A stretch of DNA of 64,000 bases from Thermomonas carbonis (GTDB taxonomy: Bacteria > Pseudomonadota > Gammaproteobacteria > Xanthomonadales > Xanthomonadaceae). The DNA lies in assembly GCF_014396975.1 (NCBI RefSeq), contig NZ_CP060719.1, positions 3,010,001-3,074,000 on the forward strand, read 5' to 3'. A program made the position numbers and the translations under genes. Of this stretch, positions 53,681 to 62,584 are shown one piece after another (within the stretch, counting starts at the first letter, position 1; each line of letters begins with the position of its first letter). A model generated the notes under the pieces. It did no database searches. It saw only the letters and a list, made by a program, of their open reading frames with translations, and was not told the origin of the DNA.

Positions 53681-55459
53681 TTACCGGCAATAACTGCCAA
53701 CGCACGCCGTTCCGTGAACGATGTTGTTGACCCGGCTGTTGAATGCGGCGTTGTCGGCGGCGCGTTGGTACCTGGACCAGCTTGCCGCGGCCATGCTGGC
53801 GCTGGACGAGCTTCCCGAACCGTTGATGGCGCTCGAGCCTGCGCCACTCGCGGCCATCCGCTTCTGCTGCGCGAAATAGGCTTCCCAACGACGCAGGCCC
53901 TCTTCGTAGGCCTTCGCATTGGCGATGCGGGTCTTTTCCTGCTTCATGGATCGCAGGATCGCGGCGGCGGAACTGCTGCCCCTGTCCGACGCAATCGCCA
54001 TGTAGCTCCTGGCTTTCTTCTGGTCAACGGCAACGCCATTGCCTTCCCAGTACGCCATGCCCATGAACTCCGCAGCGGCAACATGACCGACGCGCGCGGC
54101 GTTTTCGATGAGGATGATGCCGTCGCCCTTGTTGACGTCGAACACGCCCGGCAGTCCGTAGAAAAACCAGTTGCCGAGCAACCAGCTTGCTTCTTCGTCG
54201 CCCTCTTCCATCAGGCGCGCAACACGCATCGCGCCGTACTTCCTGTCGCCGCCATCGACCTGCTTCAGCGCGGCGGCGAGTTGGCGTGCGACAGGCCAAG
54301 CCGGATCGATGCGGGTCTCTCGCGCATATTCGACGGGATCCGGATCAAGCAATGGGACGGTTTCACAGGCAGTCTTGTCGCCAAGTGCACATGCGCGCCT
54401 GGTGAGGGCAACCACGAAGTTGTAGTTTTTCCTGACCTCGATGCCGTCGATGTAGGCATCGACAAGCAGGTTGCAGGCACCGGATGCACCGAGGTCGCAG
54501 CCCCGACGCGCCATGCCGACCGCCTCCAGCAGAGTGGTCGTCGCACCCCGCAGCTTGCGAAACCCGACACTGGCCATCTGCTCGCACGCAAACGCCTGTC
54601 CATCAAGGCAACCGTGATAGAGCAGTTGCTCGCCGCGATTCACGGAGGCAGCGTCGCCCGACCTGACCAGCGCCGCGCCATGCACGGCGCAAACGTGAAT
54701 CTTCTCGCCGTCGCTTTCCAGGCAGCCTTTGCGGGCGAATTCCTCGGCCTTTGCCCGATCCAGCGCGACGCCTCTTCCACTCAGGTAAGCGTCTGCCAGG
54801 CCGCTGCAGCCCCAGGCCTGTTTGCGCGAACATGCAGCCTCGAACAACGGGATGGCTCCAGCCCGGGTCTTGGCATCGGCCGATTCGTAGAACAAGGCGC
54901 CGGCTTGCAGGCGGCACCCGTCATCCTCCCCTGACGCGCAGCTCTTTTGCCACAGGTCTCGTGCGGTCGCAGGACTGCTTGCAGCAGCAAGACCGCGGAA
55001 ATGCAGCAGTCCCAGCGATGCGCATGCCGCCTGATTGCCGAGCTGTTCGCATCCGCGCGTGGCGGTCGCGAGCGCCAAGGCCTTGTCGGTGTATTCAGCC
55101 CAACCCTCGCGCACGATTGTCGTAGCGCTCGCGCACGATGGACCGTCGCCGAGCGTGCACGCTTTCAGATAGAAACCCACTGCGATTCGCACGCTCGCAT
55201 CCAGGTCGCCGAGGCCCGCGTCGAATGCCGAGCCCAGCCGCATGCAGGCCTTCGCATCACCCCCAACGCACGCTTTGTTCCAGTCCTGCGCAACGCCGTA
55301 GAGCACCGTTGGCATGTTCTGCTTGCCATTGAATATCTGGCCATTCGCATAGCCATCGACGGCACGCGGAATGGCGTTGTCCTTCGCGTACGCCATCGCC
55401 GGCAGGAATAGCGCAGCAAGAACGAGCGCGAACGCCGTGCCGGCCCTTGCTTCAAGCAT
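53681..55459 (-). CDS. Large secreted Sel1-repeat protein
   Basis: A 592-residue exported protein (signal AFALVLAALFLPAMAYA). At least nine Sel1-type repeats are visible, many with a cysteine in the helix pair (GDAKACMRLGSAFDAGLGD, KQAWGCSGLADAYLSGRGV, DLGASGACNLLVDAYIDG), suggesting helicobacter-cysteine-rich-like disulphide-stapled repeats. The C-terminal 80 residues are low-complexity (Ser/Gly/Ala-rich) and end in VHGTACVGSYCR. It may recruit other envelope proteins. It sits upstream of the second Sel1 gene, and the paired genes suggest one system. Confidence 0.88.
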   Translation of the reverse strand: MLEARAGTAFALVLAALFLPAMAYAKDNAIPRAVDGYANGQIFNGKQNMPTVLYGVAQDWNKACVGGDAKACMRLGSAFDAGLGDLDASVRIAVGFYLKACTLGDGPSCASATTIVREGWAEYTDKALALATATRGCEQLGNQAACASLGLLHFRGLAAASSPATARDLWQKSCASGEDDGCRLQAGALFYESADAKTRAGAIPLFEAACSRKQAWGCSGLADAYLSGRGVALDRAKAEEFARKGCLESDGEKIHVCAVHGAALVRSGDAASVNRGEQLLYHGCLDGQAFACEQMASVGFRKLRGATTTLLEAVGMARRGCDLGASGACNLLVDAYIDGIEVRKNYNFVVALTRRACALGDKTACETVPLLDPDPVEYARETRIDPAWPVARQLAAALKQVDGGDRKYGAMRVARLMEEGDEEASWLLGNWFFYGLPGVFDVNKGDGIILIENAARVGHVAAAEFMGMAYWEGNGVAVDQKKARSYMAIASDRGSSSAAAILRSMKQEKTRIANAKAYEEGLRRWEAYFAQQKRMAASGAGSSAINGSGSSSSASMAAASWSRYQRAADNAAFNSRVNNIVHGTACVGSYCR

Positions 55460-55619: not shown

Positions 55620-55680
55620 GTTTTTTGACCCCGTTTTTTTAGTGCCCCCGGCACTTTTCTCGCCGCGGTCTGTTAGCGTG

Positions 55681-56793
55681 ATGGACGCTTCCCGAGTACC
55701 TCCCATGCACGCTTTCGCTGTTGTTGCCGCCCTGCTCCTCGCCGTCGCGCCCTTCCACCCGTCCTCCGCCAGCGACGCGCCCGCCACTGCGCTGGCGCCT
55801 GCATCGCTGTGCGCCTCGCCCGCGACGCCAGTGGCGTTTTCCGGCTACGTGCCGATCGGGGGCATCGAGCAATGGGTCACGATCCGCGGTGATCGCTGCG
55901 ACCAGCCGATCGTGCTGGTCGTGCATGGCGGCCCAGGCAACCCCCTCACGCCCTTCGCCGATGCGTTGTTCGGCGACCTGGAGGCCGAGTTCGTCGTCGT
56001 GCAGTGGGACCAGCGCGGCGCCGGACGCACCTTCCGGCGCAACCCGCAGCTGGCCGAAGCACCGCTGACGCTGGCGCAGATGACGACCGATGGCGTCGAC
56101 GTGGCGACGCGGGTTGCCGCTGCCCTCAACCAGCCGAAGGTGATCCTGCTCGGCGGCTCCTGGGGCTCCGCGCTGGCGGTCCACATGGCGAAGGCGAAGC
56201 CAGCGGCCTTCCATGCCTACGTCGGCGCCGGGCAACTGGTGCAGGAACTCGATAACGACATCGACACCGTCGCGCGCCTGCGTGCACTGGCCGAACCGGC
56301 CGGCGACACCACCACGCTGGCGATGCTGGACGCGCTGGGCGCGCCGCCGTGGACCAACCCGCGCGCATTCGGCCAGTTGCGCCGCGCGACCCGTGTCTAC
56401 GAGTCCAAGACCAGCACGCCGGCGCCGGCGCACTGGTGGCGGCCGTCCGCCGAGTACGCAACGCCGGCCGACGCCGCGGCCACCGAAGCCGGCGAGGAGT
56501 ACTCCTACATCGAGTTCGTCGGCATGACCGGCGGCGGGATGCTCTCTCAGATCGACCTGTGGAAGCTGGGAACCGATTTCCCGCTGCCGATCACGCTGAT
56601 CCAGGGCGAACACGACCTGGTGACCACCAAGGGCGTCGCCCGCCGCTGGTTCGATAGCCTGCAGGCGCCGCAAAAGTCCTTCGTCCTGCTCGCCCACACC
56701 GGCCATGATCCGAACGAGGAGATGATGGCGGCGGAAGGCGCTGCGTTGCGCCGCATCCGGGCATCACTGGTCGAGGCTGGCGCGCCCAAGTAG
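55681..56793 (+). CDS. Alpha/beta hydrolase, prolyl aminopeptidase-like (S33), secreted
   Basis: A 370-residue hydrolase with an N-terminal signal (FAVVAALLLAVAPFHPSSA). It has the S33 hallmarks HGGPGNPLTP and WDQRGAGRTF, then the nucleophile elbow GGSWGS, an aspartate in IQGEHDLVT and a histidine in HTGHDPNE. These motifs are typical of prolyl iminopeptidases, though secreted members may have other peptide or ester substrates. An ATG eight codons further in (55705) is an equally plausible start. It ends in a REP-like region. Confidence 0.87.
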   Translation: MDASRVPPMHAFAVVAALLLAVAPFHPSSASDAPATALAPASLCASPATPVAFSGYVPIGGIEQWVTIRGDRCDQPIVLVVHGGPGNPLTPFADALFGDLEAEFVVVQWDQRGAGRTFRRNPQLAEAPLTLAQMTTDGVDVATRVAAALNQPKVILLGGSWGSALAVHMAKAKPAAFHAYVGAGQLVQELDNDIDTVARLRALAEPAGDTTTLAMLDALGAPPWTNPRAFGQLRRATRVYESKTSTPAPAHWWRPSAEYATPADAAATEAGEEYSYIEFVGMTGGGMLSQIDLWKLGTDFPLPITLIQGEHDLVTTKGVARRWFDSLQAPQKSFVLLAHTGHDPNEEMMAAEGAALRRIRASLVEAGAPK

Positions 56794-56986: not shown

Positions 56987-57829
56987 TCACTTGAGCTGCT
57001 TGGTCAGCCATTCCATGGCCTTGTTGATCCCCTCCGCGATCGCTCCGGAATTCGCGGCATGCGCACCGCCAAGGCCAATCGGCGACATCATCTGGAAGAA
57101 GCCGAGGAACATCTGGTAGTTCAGGTCCTTCTGGATCGAGAGCAGGCGGTTCCTGGCCACGCCCGGGCACATCTTGCGGGCCACCACGTAGTCGCGGTAA
57201 TCCATCAACGCGGTGGTGGCGATCGTCTTGCGGATATGGAACTCGGTGTTGTTCCTGGCGCGTGCACGCCAGTACGCCTCGTCGTTGCGCAACATCAGGA
57301 TCCCCTGCACACGCTTGTTGGGGTCGGAGACACATTGCGTGTTGGATTGCGCGGATTTCCACAGGAGGATCGAGGTGTAGTGCTGCGCAAGCGACCCCGT
57401 GGCCGGGAACTCCCGGGCCTCGGCGGGGGCGGTAGGCGTTTTCAGCACCCACGCGGCCGCCTCATGGCCGAAATCCCGGACCAAGCTCGCCTTTTCGGCG
57501 TCGGAAAACGTCCAGCTGGGTCCCGAGGGTGGCTTGGGCGGCACCGGCTTGAGATGGGCGGCAAACAACGCCGCCAATGTCTGCCCCGCCTTGTCCACGC
57601 GCTTGTCGGGGTTCTGGTAGCCCAGGAAGCGCCGCTGGAAGCTGCCGATCGCATCCTTCGTCTTGGGGCCGCACTGCCCGTCGACCGTCAGCGGAGCCAG
57701 GCCAGGCAACAGGCCGTCGTTGATCAACGTGGTCAGGCGCGACTGGATCACGATCACGTCCACCTGGCGATTCACGCCGTTCTGTCCCACCGATGCATCG
57801 ATATATGTTTCCACGGAGATTCTCGTCAC
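56987..57829 (-). CDS. Hypothetical protein with peptidoglycan-binding-like N-terminal domain
   Basis: A 280-residue protein. Residues of about 10-90 resemble a PG_binding_1-like domain: VIVIQSRLTTLINDGLLPG, then VDGQCGPKTKDAIGSFQRR, with the G-P-x-T-x-x-A-I-x-x-F-Q signature. After a Pro-rich linker comes a helical domain with a few cysteines and no known motif (DYRDYVVARKMCPGVARNRL). There is no signal peptide; a GTG at 57829 places the start just before the first domain. Such proteins are often secreted through type VI or other routes, or are spike-associated. A role in cell-wall or toxin delivery is only an inference. Confidence 0.65.
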   Translation of the reverse strand: MTRISVETYIDASVGQNGVNRQVDVIVIQSRLTTLINDGLLPGLAPLTVDGQCGPKTKDAIGSFQRRFLGYQNPDKRVDKAGQTLAALFAAHLKPVPPKPPSGPSWTFSDAEKASLVRDFGHEAAAWVLKTPTAPAEAREFPATGSLAQHYTSILLWKSAQSNTQCVSDPNKRVQGILMLRNDEAYWRARARNNTEFHIRKTIATTALMDYRDYVVARKMCPGVARNRLLSIQKDLNYQMFLGFFQMMSPIGLGGAHAANSGAIAEGINKAMEWLTKQLK

Positions 57830-58080
57830 GAATAAGTTATGCCTGCGAAGGCGTGCAGTCTCGGGCCAGGCATCGCGCGTGCCTATATCGCGAATGGCGT
57901 AGGCCGCGCGGAAATGGGAAAAATGGCCCGGCATCGACCTGCGGCATCGACCTGGATATTGTCCAGCGCGGCAATGATCGACACACCTGCTTCGCGGATG
58001 ACGCCGACTAGGCGCTGATCCTGGATTGAGCAGCGGCGGCCTACACGCGTCGGCGACGCCGATTCGGCGAAGGTGCGTGC

Positions 58081-58890
58081 ATGCGTTCCGTCCACCCGCC
58101 CTCGCCACCCGCCTGGTGGATCGTCCAGCAAGGCGACGATCCGGTGATTGCCACCGCGATCCACGACGGGCACGCCGTGGCTGCAACGACCCGGGCGAGG
58201 ATGCGGCTTGCGGAGGACCAGCGCCTGCGCGAGGAGGATCCGCATACCGGCCAGGCGATCGTCGATGTGCCGACCCACGTCATCGCCCTGCGCTCCCGGT
58301 TCGAGGCCGACCTCAACCGGGGACTCGCGCAGTCCGTCTACATGGATCCCAGCCAGTGCTGGGGCCTGCAGGTCTGGAACGATCCTCCCGACGGCACCTT
58401 GTTGCGGCAGCTGCACGCTTACCACCGCGGCTTCTACCGGATGCTGGGGGAGACGCTGGATGGCATCGTCGCCAGGCACGGACGCTTCGTCCTGCTGGAC
58501 GTGCACAGCTACAACCACCGGCGCGATGGTGCCGATGCCGCGCCGACGCCGCAGGCGCAGGCACCCGACATCAACATCGGCACGTTCTCGATGCCGCGCG
58601 ATCGCTGGTCCTTCCTGCTGGATCCGCTGATCGACACGATGCGCGCGTTCGCATTCAATGGCCGTCGCCTGGACGTGCGCGAAAACGTGGCGTTCCAGGG
58701 CAAGGGCGAGCTGACGCGCTTCGTGCACGCACGCTATCCGGACAGCGGGTGCGCCATCGCCCTGGAGTTCAAGAAGTTCTACATGGACGAATGGAGCGGC
58801 ACGCCCTATCCGGACGAACTGGCGGCGATGCGTACCTTCATCGCGCATGTCGCAGCGCGCGCGCGGATGCTGCTGGTCGACGCGCCTTGA
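58081..58890 (+). CDS. N-formylglutamate amidohydrolase family protein
   Basis: A 269-residue protein of the HutG-type N-formylglutamate amidohydrolase superfamily (zinc amidohydrolases acting on N-acyl or N-formyl amino acids). The metal-binding motif LDVHSYNHRR lies near residue 141, and DVPTHVIALRSRFEADLNR and GCAIALEFKKFYMDEW are also family-typical. No histidine-utilisation genes are nearby. Instead the stop codon overlaps the TTG start of a DUF1704 gene (TTGA), so the protein is made together with the following peptidase and ligase, probably as a set acting on a common substrate. Confidence 0.85.
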   Translation: MRSVHPPSPPAWWIVQQGDDPVIATAIHDGHAVAATTRARMRLAEDQRLREEDPHTGQAIVDVPTHVIALRSRFEADLNRGLAQSVYMDPSQCWGLQVWNDPPDGTLLRQLHAYHRGFYRMLGETLDGIVARHGRFVLLDVHSYNHRRDGADAAPTPQAQAPDINIGTFSMPRDRWSFLLDPLIDTMRAFAFNGRRLDVRENVAFQGKGELTRFVHARYPDSGCAIALEFKKFYMDEWSGTPYPDELAAMRTFIAHVAARARMLLVDAP

Positions 58891-60799
58891 AGGCGGTCGC
58901 GCCGACGCAACGGGAGCCTTCGCCCGACCTCGACGGTGAACACGCCTATCGGCGGGCGCTGCCGGCGGGCGGGCGCGTCCACATCGACCGCCCCCTGCCA
59001 TTCCTGCTGCTGGCCAGGCATCCGGACGCTCCCTTCAGCCTGGCGCGGCGCATCGCCTCCATCAGCGCCGCCAGCGTGGTCTGGCCCGAAGCCGGCGGCG
59101 AGCAGGCGGATGCCGACGCCGGCGCGGAAATCGGCGCGCTGCTCGACCACCTGGCAATCGCCTATCCGCGCTTCCTGGTCATCGTCCTGCACGACCTGCC
59201 CCGCGATGCCGGCCTGCGCGAAGAAGGCCCGGAGCTCGAGGCCTTCGAATTCGTGCTTGGCTCCAGCGGAGCGGCCGCGGCCACCACGGTGGTGCGCACC
59301 CTGGCCGAAGCCCTCTCGGACGTGAAGCTGGACCTGCGGACACCGACCGTGCTGGAGCGGCAACGGGCGGCGCTCCCCCCCGAGGTCGAATCCGCCCTGC
59401 GTGGACGCAACGGGCTGTCGATCGTCTCGCTCGGCGTGCCGCAGATCCACCGCATACCCGGCGATCGTCGGCGCGTCTACTCGCAGGTCTACCACCACAT
59501 CGAGAGCGCCGTGCACGACGCGCTCCTCAAGAGCGCCGCGCGCTTCGTCGCGCTGGCGGCCGCCGATGCGCCGCCCGGCCCGGGCCGCGCTGATCGACCG
59601 CACTACCGCTCGCTCGGGCGCAGCCGCTTCGTCCAGGCCGCGCGCCGCGCGGACGCGGCGCTCGCACGCATCAGCGCCTCCTTCGATTTCCTGCTGGGGG
59701 TCTCGCCGATCAATAGCGTGCAGGCCTGCGACGCCTTCGAGGCCGGGGCTGCAGGACGCAGCCGCAGTTCCAGTACCGGCCATTGCCGGTCAATCCCGAC
59801 ATCGTCAAGCGACGGCTGTACGCCATCGACCTGCGCGCGGTGGAAGACCCGGTGCTGGAGCACCTGTTCGCCGAGAAGCGGATGGAGCTGGACCAGCAGC
59901 TGACGATGCTGCAGCGTCGCAACACGCCGGCGTTCCGCTACGTGTCCCTGCTCCAGTACGGACCGGTCGAGCCAGACTTGCTCGCCCTGGCGAACACCTT
60001 GCTCGAGGCCTTCCCGCCCGGCACCGGGCGCTGCGGCGAGCGCCTTGGCGCGGCTGCGGTCCAGGCCGAGGCCACCCGCATGCTTGCGCGTTACGCGCGT
60101 CGCGCACCGGCATTTGCCGCGGCGGAAACGAGCCTGCGCTCCGACACCGGTCCCGGGCTCATGGTCTCCGGTTCCTCCCTGCTGATTTCGACCGCGACCA
60201 TGGTGCCGCGCGACCGCCTGGATCCCCTCCTGCAGCACGAGATCAGCGTGCATGTGCTCACCTACATCAACGGCAGCCAGCAGGGGCTGGGCATCTTCGG
60301 GGCCGGCCTCGCCGGTTACGAAGGCTTGCAGGAAGGCCTGGGCGTGTTCGCCGAGTTCCTGGTGGGCGGGCTGACCGTGGCCCGCCTGCGCCTGCTGGCG
60401 GCGCGCGTGGTCGTGGTCGACGCGATGCTGGGCGGGGCCGATTTCATCCAGTGCCACCGCCTGTTGCAGGGCAAGCACGGCTTTTCCAGCGGCGGCGCGT
60501 TCAACATCGTGGCGCGCATCTTCCGCTCCGGCGGGCTGACCAAGGATGCGATCTACCTGCGCGGCTTCCAGCAGGTGCTGCAACGGGTCGCCGACGGCGG
60601 CTCGCTGGATCCGCTCTGGTACGGAAAGATCGCCGAACACCACGTGCCGGTGGTGGAGGAACTCAAGGCGCGCGGAATGCTCCGCTCGCCGGTTGCCACC
60701 CCCGAATTCCTCGAACGCCCCTGCGCGCAGGCCAGGTTGTCGCACCTGCGCCAAGGCCATTCCTTCATCGACGTGCTCAAGGATCCCCCGCCATGCTGA
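58887..60799 (+). pseudogene. DUF1704/QEGLA-motif metallopeptidase family protein, frameshifted
   Basis: Belongs to TIGR02421, flavohemoglobin expression-modulating QEGLA motif protein (DUF1704). The same family includes the human tubulin carboxypeptidase MATCAP. Zinc ligands are in HEISVH (HExxxH, at 60236-60253) and the third-ligand region is the QEGL motif (60329-60340). A TTG overlaps the upstream stop. The frame breaks at a G-run at 59745-59748 between FEAGG and QPQFQYRPLPVNPD; one extra G restores about 637 residues. The catalytic part lies in the second frame. If the break is real, no active peptidase is made. Confidence 0.85.
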
Positions 60800-61845
60800 T
60801 CGCTTTCTTCGTCAACTCGCTCGAGTCCGAGTACCCGCGCTACACGACCACCGTGCTTGCCCACGAGGCTTCCCGCCGCGGGCACGACGTCTGCTATCTG
60901 ACCCCGGGCGACTTCGTGCTCAACCCGGACGACACGCTGCAGGTGCACGCGCGCATGATCCCCGCCGGCAAGGGCAAGGCGCGCAGTCGGGAGGAGTTCT
61001 TCAAGGCACTCAAGGGAGTAGGCAAGAAGAACACCCTGATCGACATCGCGGACCTCGACGTCCTCATGTTGCGCAGCGACCCGTCCACCGAGGCCAGCGA
61101 GCGCCCCTGGGCCGAAACCATCGGCGTCCAGTTCGGCCAGCGCGCGACGGAAGCTGGGGTGCTGGTGCTCAACGACCCGACCTCGCTCTCGCAGGCGATC
61201 AACAAACTCTACTTCCAGTCGTTCCCGCGCGAGGTTCGCGCGAAGACCCTGATCAGCCGCCACATCGCCGACATCAAGGCATTCGCCAAGGCCAATGGCG
61301 GCAAGATCGTTGTGAAGCCGTTGCAGGGGTCCGGCGGCCAGGGCGTGTTCGTGGTCAATTCGAAGTCATCGGGCAACCTCAACCAGATGGCGGAGGCGAT
61401 CGCGCGCGACGGCTACATCATCGCCCAGTCGGTGGTTCCGGAAGCCGACAAGGGCGACATCCGCCTGTTCATGATGAACGGCAGGCCGCTGCAGGTCGAC
61501 GGTAAATACGCCGCGATGCGGCGCGTCGGTGCGGAGGACGACGTACGCAGCAATATCCACGCGGGCGGGACCGCCAAGCCGGTCAAGATCACGGAGCGTG
61601 AATTGCGCCTGGCCGAACTGATCCGACCGAAGCTGCAATCCGACGGCATGTTCCTGGTGGGCATCGATATCATCGGCGACACCATCCTGGAGGTGAACGT
61701 GTTCACCCCGGGCAACCTGTTCACCTGCAGCGAGATGGCCGGCGTCAACTTCGCCGCGCACATCCTCGCGTCGATCGAGCGCAAGCTGGAGATCCGCGAC
61801 GAGTACCCCGGCCAGTTCACCAATGCGGAACTTGCGGTGATGTGA
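60793..61845 (+). CDS. Glutathione-synthetase-like ATP-grasp ligase
   Basis: A 350-residue ATP-grasp enzyme similar to GshB. The ATP-binding elements are KIVVKPLQGSGGQGVFVV near residue 173 and the metal-binding end is DIIGDTILEVNVFTPGNL. An N-terminal preATP-grasp fold starts MLIAFFVNSLESEYPRYT. ATP-grasp ligases join a carboxylate to an amine with ATP; here the partners are unknown. Its ATG overlaps the stop of the DUF1704 gene by seven bases, so the three genes are translationally coupled. It is unlikely to be the housekeeping glutathione synthetase, given this company. Confidence 0.85.
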   Translation: MLIAFFVNSLESEYPRYTTTVLAHEASRRGHDVCYLTPGDFVLNPDDTLQVHARMIPAGKGKARSREEFFKALKGVGKKNTLIDIADLDVLMLRSDPSTEASERPWAETIGVQFGQRATEAGVLVLNDPTSLSQAINKLYFQSFPREVRAKTLISRHIADIKAFAKANGGKIVVKPLQGSGGQGVFVVNSKSSGNLNQMAEAIARDGYIIAQSVVPEADKGDIRLFMMNGRPLQVDGKYAAMRRVGAEDDVRSNIHAGGTAKPVKITERELRLAELIRPKLQSDGMFLVGIDIIGDTILEVNVFTPGNLFTCSEMAGVNFAAHILASIERKLEIRDEYPGQFTNAELAVM

Positions 61846-62010: not shown

Positions 62011-62337
62011 TTACGCCATCGCGCGGCATGCCTCGGCACAACGGCGGCAGGCTTCGGCGCAGCGCTGGCAATGCGCCATGTCGTGGGCACCGCACTGTTC
62101 GGCGCACCAGTCGCAGACTTTCGCGCACAGTGCGCAGAGTTCGTTCGCGAACGGGCTGTGGCGCGCCATGGCATCGGCGCACAAGCGGCATAGCGCCGCG
62201 CAGTCGATGCAGCAGGCCGGGCACGCGTTGTCGCTGTGCTTGCCGGCCATGTGGCTGAAGCACTCGGCGCACGCGGTCGCGCACGCGTTGCATGCGGCGA
62301 TGCAGTCGCGGATCGCCTGGTCCAGGTGGTGGCTCAT
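62011..62337 (-). CDS. Four-helix-bundle cysteine-rich copper-binding protein (DUF326)
   Basis: A 108-residue protein with 21 cysteines in helical CxxxC-like spacing: CIAACNACATACAEC, CPACCIDCAALCRLC, CALCAKVCDWCAEQC and CQRCAEACRRCAEAC. This is the copper-storage type four-helix bundle (Csp-like, DUF326), in which cysteines inside the bundle hold many Cu(I) ions. No signal peptide is visible, so it is cytosolic like Csp3. I start it at MSHHLDQ. It probably buffers copper. No copper exporter or regulator is next to it. Confidence 0.9.
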   Translation of the reverse strand: MSHHLDQAIRDCIAACNACATACAECFSHMAGKHSDNACPACCIDCAALCRLCADAMARHSPFANELCALCAKVCDWCAEQCGAHDMAHCQRCAEACRRCAEACRAMA

Positions 62338-62584
62338 GGGGGCTCCTTGCGTCTGTGGAAAGACGGACCCCTGCACGGGGCATCACCGTCATCCTCCGCC
62401 TCGCATCGATAAGCCCGCGTCGAGAAACCGTTGGCGCGACGTGAGCCGGGGCGATGGGATGCGTCGGGTCAATGAAGCATGTCCCTGCCCCTTCTTTTCT
62501 TGTCCACGCATGCGGCGCGACTTCACACCGGGCAATCACGTCGATGGATACGGTGCCGTCACCCACTGAAGATCAGGACTCTCC

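Follow-up and report, generated by a model that had tools for sequence, protein, structure and literature searches.

Three overlapping genes in Thermomonas carbonis

We analyzed a 64,000-nucleotide stretch of Thermomonas carbonis DNA (NCBI RefSeq assembly GCF_014396975.1, contig NZ_CP060719.1, positions 3,010,001 to 3,074,000), here called the window, and focused on three consecutive forward-strand genes in it. They encode an N-formylglutamate amidohydrolase-type protein (FGase), a DUF1704/QEGLA metallopeptidase and an ATP-grasp ligase. An earlier reading made from the letters alone (the sequence-only reading) had named these three families, and the profile searches agreed. The FGase gene (58081..58890, 269 aa) matched PF05013 with 79.5 bits (cut-off 28.9), the middle gene matched PF08014 with 260 bits (cut-off 27), and the ligase gene (60793..61845, 350 aa) matched PF02955 with 164 bits as well as the subfamily model NF009110. 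The genes overlap by 4 bases, the TTG start of the middle gene (58887-58889) lying over the TGA stop of the FGase gene (58888-58890), and by 7 bases (60793-60799), both as previously noted. The GC content of the trio is 0.68 and that of the 64-kb window 0.66, a comparison that gave no signal of a foreign island at the trio.

The window FGase, aligned with 16 FGases from other trios, carries the motifs IHDGH, REEDP, DVHSYNHRR and LEFKK, which we take to hold the zinc ligands and the catalytic Glu. The presumed ligands were kept in 17 out of 17 FGases in this alignment (A3). The MATCAP-type zinc carboxypeptidase domain of the QEGLA gene (59747..60799) contains HEISVH (60236..60253), correctly recognized earlier as an HExxxH metal motif, and QEG (60329..60337). 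The latter is the counterpart of the EEG motif, which holds the putative third metal ligand of MATCAP enzymes (PMC10499314). PF08014 membership is supported by score, HExxxH, the E-G motif and fold. The QEGLA model TIGR02421 (cut-off 338.65) gave 301.4 bits, a score taken on the C-terminal part alone, from profile position 29, with the frame-split gene not read through.

A frame change in the window's QEGLA gene

The sequence-only reading placed the middle gene in the right family and overlooked that it is not one open frame. The span 58887-60799 has 1913 bases, which is no multiple of three, and is split between two frames. The N-terminal part (58887..59746), which starts at the TTG and encodes a degenerate FGase domain described below, lies in a frame that stops at 59903, and the MATCAP part lies in a second frame that ends at 60799. 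Three-frame translation placed the change, relative to the homologues listed, at a run of four G (59745..59748). Third-position GC was 0.88 for each part in its own frame, which is coding-like. We searched for homologues with a relative (locus L033, from a protein cluster named from Aerolutibacter daejeonensis) as the query, and the 120 listed of 577 protein matches were all single chains of 567-647 aa. Because these 120 are unbroken, the break is specific either to this genome or to the sequence obtained for it; the module here is probably not fully working, or the sequence has a one-base error.

The window copy could be a decaying pseudogene cluster, with a genuine frameshift and a module that no longer functions, an explanation to which we give somewhat less than even odds. 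The frame change itself points this way, as does the presence of the long-QEGLA N-terminal domain in only 1 out of 25 genomes of the genus, a sparsity which suggests that the trio is possibly dispensable. Against decay, a single lesion was seen, the FGase and ligase genes are intact, and the coding signature continues on either side of the junction. One-base errors in G runs are also a common sequencing error. This explanation is limited to the local copy and is compatible with the functional reading of the trio given below. The two frames are each conserved and, apart from the change, open, as a programmed ribosomal frameshift would have them, and yet we consider such a frameshift extremely improbable: it is needless in the 120 homologues listed of 577, and the junction presumably does not amount to a classical slippery heptamer.

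Frame breaks were also seen in relatives (G and L numbers are our labels for genomes and loci), affecting the FGase and QEGLA genes in G035 (L036), the FGase gene in G068 (L086) and the ligase gene in L156. In G035, a metagenome-type relative, both PF08014 genes (L036, L037) and the FGase gene look frame-split, and its sequence may contain many indels.

Gene order and co-occurrence across bacteria

The sequence-only reading had suggested comparing gene order across bacteria. We scanned named genomes with an alignment of long QEGLA proteins (A2), which confirmed at least 562 relatives, and kept the best 80 loci by similarity to the trio members. The order FGase-QEGLA-ligase on one strand was found in 76 of these 80 loci. 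This conservation is not chance. The trio is genuine and better conserved than a single sequence could tell, and its local copy is flawed. The four exceptions were two loci without an FGase before the contig edge (L152 and L158), one with the FGase and ligase on the opposite strand (L159), and one in which QEGLA precedes the FGase and the ligase was not found (L164). The interval between the QEGLA stop and the point where the ligase profile match begins had a median of 9 nt (at most 20 nt in 73 out of 76, with overlap in 14). The HExxxH and QEG motifs were each present in all 76 ordered loci. In the FGases, loose patterns found the first motif in 74 and DxHSYN in 69 of the 76.

The ordered loci among these best 80 span about eight phyla, with taxa as given in the records. 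They include Xanthomonadales, Sphingomonadales, Rhizobiales and other Pseudomonadota, together with Campylobacterota, Planctomycetes, Kiritimatiellae, Acidobacteria, Gemmatimonadota, Bacteroidetes and Poribacteria. The non-proteobacterial loci are mostly from metagenome bins, while Planctomycetes bacterium Pan216 is a complete chromosome. Among plasmid records, 127 matched a long QEGLA protein, 79 of them from Sinorhizobium. In the laboratory strain Sinorhizobium meliloti 2011, the FGase, long QEGLA and ligase genes lie in this order on pSymB (L175). As a separate observation, the ligase gene is doubled in L146 and QEGLA-ligase units are doubled in L158 and L161, on Gemmatimonadota and planctomycete contigs.

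We then considered 274 genomes of the class. This is a fairer test than the 80-locus count, because those loci were chosen by similarity to the trio. NF009110 identified 15 copies in 14 genomes with at least 353 bits, and all other listed matches scored at most 244 bits. Eleven of the 15 copies (10 genomes, one with two tandem ligases) lie in runs of FGase, long QEGLA and ligase, two more (G278 and G161) adjoin an FGase::MATCAP fusion, and the last two are the divergent ligases of G268 and G250 discussed below. The score of NF009110 exceeded its cut-off in 9 of the 274 genomes, and a MATCAP neighbor was found in 9 out of 9. When 274 class genomes were searched with a profile (A4) built on the N-terminal domain of QEGLA, 16 genomes matched, ten strongly and six weakly. 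The ten strong genomes are exactly the ten with a non-divergent trio ligase, although the profile itself includes sequences from those ten. For the three proteins, the correlations between distance matrices were r 0.88-0.92, uncorrected for species kinship.

At family level, the long-QEGLA N-terminal domain was found in 11 of 296 genomes at E 1e-47 or better, plus 6 weak matches, a count that leaves out trios without this domain (G027 and G035). A shorter kind of PF08014 gene is more common. The T. carbonis genome has one (C1:751940-753013, minus strand, L003; 385 bits) beside rsgA, and all 24 other genomes of the genus have one that is of the shorter kind by score (split in G009). PF08014 was present in 47 out of 60 relatives, most of the shorter type by score, with eight loci typed by their surroundings.

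When flanking ORFs of 110 aa or more were clustered, no further partner shared by the trio loci emerged. The largest group comprised 22 loci at variable distance, and its single tested member encodes an oligopeptide-type ABC ATPase; the other groups, where tested, look lineage-specific. Likewise, no widely conserved small ORF was found within 1.5 kb of the trio in 95 loci, the largest small-ORF families being confined to 6 close rhizobial loci. This bears on whether the trio matures a ribosomally synthesized and post-translationally modified peptide of the graspetide kind, the ligase modifying a precursor and the hydrolases trimming it. Graspetide clusters can place ATP-grasp and peptidase genes together (PMC8939145), but with no linked precursor at these loci we regard such a role as very unlikely.

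A degenerate FGase domain and FGase::MATCAP fusions

The N-terminal domain of the long QEGLA protein has no Pfam match. We found that it is a degenerate FGase, with homology established by hhalign, by profile and by structure comparison; to recognize the long QEGLA N-terminal domain in this way is new. The A4 profile matches real FGases and the fold agrees. Sequence searches of the PDB gave only chance-level matches with A4, whose fold comparison did match, and nothing up to E 1 with the FGase profile A3. At the three positions that we assume to bind zinc in an active FGase, the domain does not keep the ligands. The His of IHxGH and the Glu of EED are missing in 76 out of 76 loci and the His of DxHSYN in 70 out of 76. 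The domain is thus predicted from its sequence to be inactive.

Photobacterium, Vibrio and three further genomes have the FGase and MATCAP domains covalently fused, each within one open frame; the fusions measure 667 aa (two genomes), 674 aa, 676 aa and 665 aa. One of these fusions, in Vibrio sp. HDW18 (L173:8308-10299), has maoP and nagB as neighbors. A working contact between FGase and MATCAP is suggested by both the degenerate domain and these fusions.

The ligase is related to GshB and probably distinct from it

Both glutathione synthetase domains (GSH-S_N, PF02951; GSH-S_ATP, PF02955) of the window ligase scored above cut-off, and NF009110 (PRK12458) gave 423.8 bits (cut-off 408). The invariant columns of the ligase alignment (A1) include Lys138, Lys175, Asp292, Glu300 and Asn302, to which we assign presumed ATP and metal roles. 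Compared with the PDB, A1 was closest to glutathione synthetase 1gsa (E 1.7e-59), with RimK 5zct more distant (E 2.8e-22).

The ligase might therefore be a second synthetase of glutathione or of a gamma-glutamyl peptide, with the hydrolases salvaging its conjugates, as the name of NF009110 and the nearness of 1gsa would have it. We find this quite improbable, since the window ligase stays below the curated cut-offs of the glutathione synthase models TIGR01380 (194.1 bits, cut-off 299.05) and NF003573 (206.7 bits, cut-off 272), the class-wide scores leave the gap described above, and another GshB-type gene lies at 1898142 in the same genome. With a MATCAP neighbor in all 9 of the 274 class genomes that have an over-cut-off copy, the name glutathione synthetase given to NF009110 may mislead annotation.

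A published lead supports the coupling of ligase and QEGLA. In Photobacterium damselae RM-71, comparing growth at 1% with 3% NaCl, the 'glutathione synthase GshB' gene A0J47_RS17020 was up 38.4-fold, the QEGLA gene A0J47_RS17025 up 27.5-fold and the nearby-numbered hypothetical gene RS17005 up 18.6-fold (PMC10308900). The first two, as given there, have adjacent locus numbers. In the related Photobacterium sp. GJ3, the open frame of a divergent trio-type ligase overlaps an FGase::MATCAP fusion. By analogy, the P. damselae pair is probably the fused form of the module. With the GJ3 pair as a model, we infer that the P. damselae 'GshB' is other than the housekeeping enzyme, and the 'GshB' reading in the salinity study is probably misleading. 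In Pseudoalteromonas sp. HL-AS1 (L176), a standalone short QEGLA gene lies between betIBA betaine synthesis and arginine catabolism genes, a neighborhood that is only suggestive.

We found no literature linking DUF1704, or N-formylglutamate amidohydrolase, with ATP-grasp. DUF1704 by name appeared only in work on malaria parasite genomes, as far as the text available shows. Beyond the salinity study we found no published lead on the trio, though an earlier mention in an amidoligase survey or in the MATCAP discovery paper is possible. Amidoligases were reportedly covered by Iyer et al. in 2009.

A proposed module that makes and cuts amide bonds

Functional coupling of the three genes is strongly supported: their order is fixed, they overlap or lie a short distance apart, they are present or absent together, FGase and MATCAP occur fused, and a ligase/QEGLA pair is co-induced in published data. 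The sequence-only reading had gone further, holding that the three proteins must be made together. This is too strong, given the frameshifted copy here and the separated parts elsewhere.

We propose, with a probability of about one half, that the three proteins constitute a self-contained module of the cytosol in which amide bonds are made and cut on a single small molecule or short peptide common to all three. With ATP, the ligase would couple a carboxylate to an amino acid, and the MATCAP-type carboxypeptidase would take the C-terminal amino acid off the product. The FGase would hydrolyze an N-acyl amino acid, perhaps the substrate of the ligase or else the remainder left by the carboxypeptidase. 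The degenerate domain may dock the live FGase and so bring the two hydrolases side by side, as in the covalent fusions. That one compound is both built and trimmed is suggested by the presence of one ligase with two exo-type hydrolases. A small substrate is favored because the ligase is near GshB, no target or precursor gene is linked, and the second hydrolase is of an N-acyl-amino-acid type.

Several observations weigh against this proposal. The fusion of Vibrio sp. HDW18 has no ligase annotated or found within 19 kb, and no ligase was found in the 11 kb around the fusion of G163. Around two divergent ligases (G268 and G250), neither MATCAP nor FGase was found within 19 kb. Taken together, these cases indicate that parts of the trio can stand apart. 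The degenerate domain still has the DxHSYN His in the window and in 6 of the 76 loci, and 9 of the 76 retain what is presumably the catalytic Glu, so its inactivity is a prediction. The 76-of-80 count comes from loci picked for their similarity to trio members. Finally, the MATCAP substrates given in PMC10499314 are protein tails.

This last point favors a cycle on a protein tail, for which the sequence-only reading had pointed to the tubulin tyrosination cycle. The ligase would attach an amino acid to a bacterial protein's C-terminus, as TTL or RimK do, the MATCAP domain would remove it and the FGase would clear a side product. The action of MATCAP/TMCP enzymes on tubulin tails in that source (PMC10499314) and the place of RimK among the ATP-grasp matches speak for it. 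The ligase, however, is much nearer to GshB than to RimK (TIGR00768, 76 bits, cut-off 143.4). No conserved target gene was found beside the trio, although a target could lie elsewhere, and the second, N-acyl-type hydrolase is hard to place. A tubulin-like cycle is possible but less likely than a small-substrate module, and taken by itself rather unlikely.

Within the small-substrate proposal, a more specific version is tentative and, we judge, under even odds. It holds that the trio runs an undescribed and widespread cycle of one ligase and two hydrolases on an N-acyl peptide metabolite, possibly salt-responsive, in which docking lets MATCAP and FGase act in sequence. The conserved unit with its FGase and degenerate domain makes the trio a specific, testable system. 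The bacterial MATCAP relatives are mostly annotated 'flavohemoglobin expression-modulating' in the records examined. Finding the substrate would give a function to these genes, present in hundreds of genomes, and might point to an origin for the chemistry of the tubulin enzymes.

Neighboring genes in the window

Downstream of the ligase lies a gene for a Cys-rich protein (62011-62376, minus strand) with a PF03860 match and weak similarity to the copper-storage protein Csp1 (28.5 bits, cut-off 100). Upstream are a gene with a Sel1-type repeat look by eye (53681-55459, minus strand), an alpha/beta hydrolase gene (55642-56793, plus strand; PF00561, 57 bits) and a frame with a weak peptidoglycan-binding match (56987-58186, minus strand; 22.4 bits, cut-off 23) that overlaps the start of the FGase gene.

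Comparison with known systems

RimK with its partner protease and the NAGGN osmolyte trio likewise combine an ATP-grasp ligase gene with an adjacent peptidase gene. Those systems, as generally described, use other peptidase families and have no FGase. The trio FGase shares family and motifs with N-formylglutamate amidohydrolase (PF05013; HutG; 2q7s), but it scores far below the HutG equivalog TIGR02017 (24.1 bits, cut-off 278.75), has a MATCAP protein and a ligase as partners, and is fused to MATCAP in some lineages. Likewise, the trio ligase resembles GshB (TIGR01380; 1gsa) in its two GSH-S Pfam domains and in having it as the closest solved structure by sequence. It differs in falling below the curated cut-offs, in belonging to NF009110, in standing beside two hydrolases and in sharing its genome with another GshB-type gene. 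The MATCAP/TMCP tubulin carboxypeptidases (KIAA0895L, KIAA0895; PF08014) match bacterial QEGLA with 17% identity in structural comparison, whereas the bacterial protein has a degenerate FGase domain in front and a ligase and an FGase as partners. Should the tentative metabolite cycle prove right, the tubulin detyrosinases would descend from, or share ancestry with, a carboxypeptidase of a bacterial metabolite cycle.

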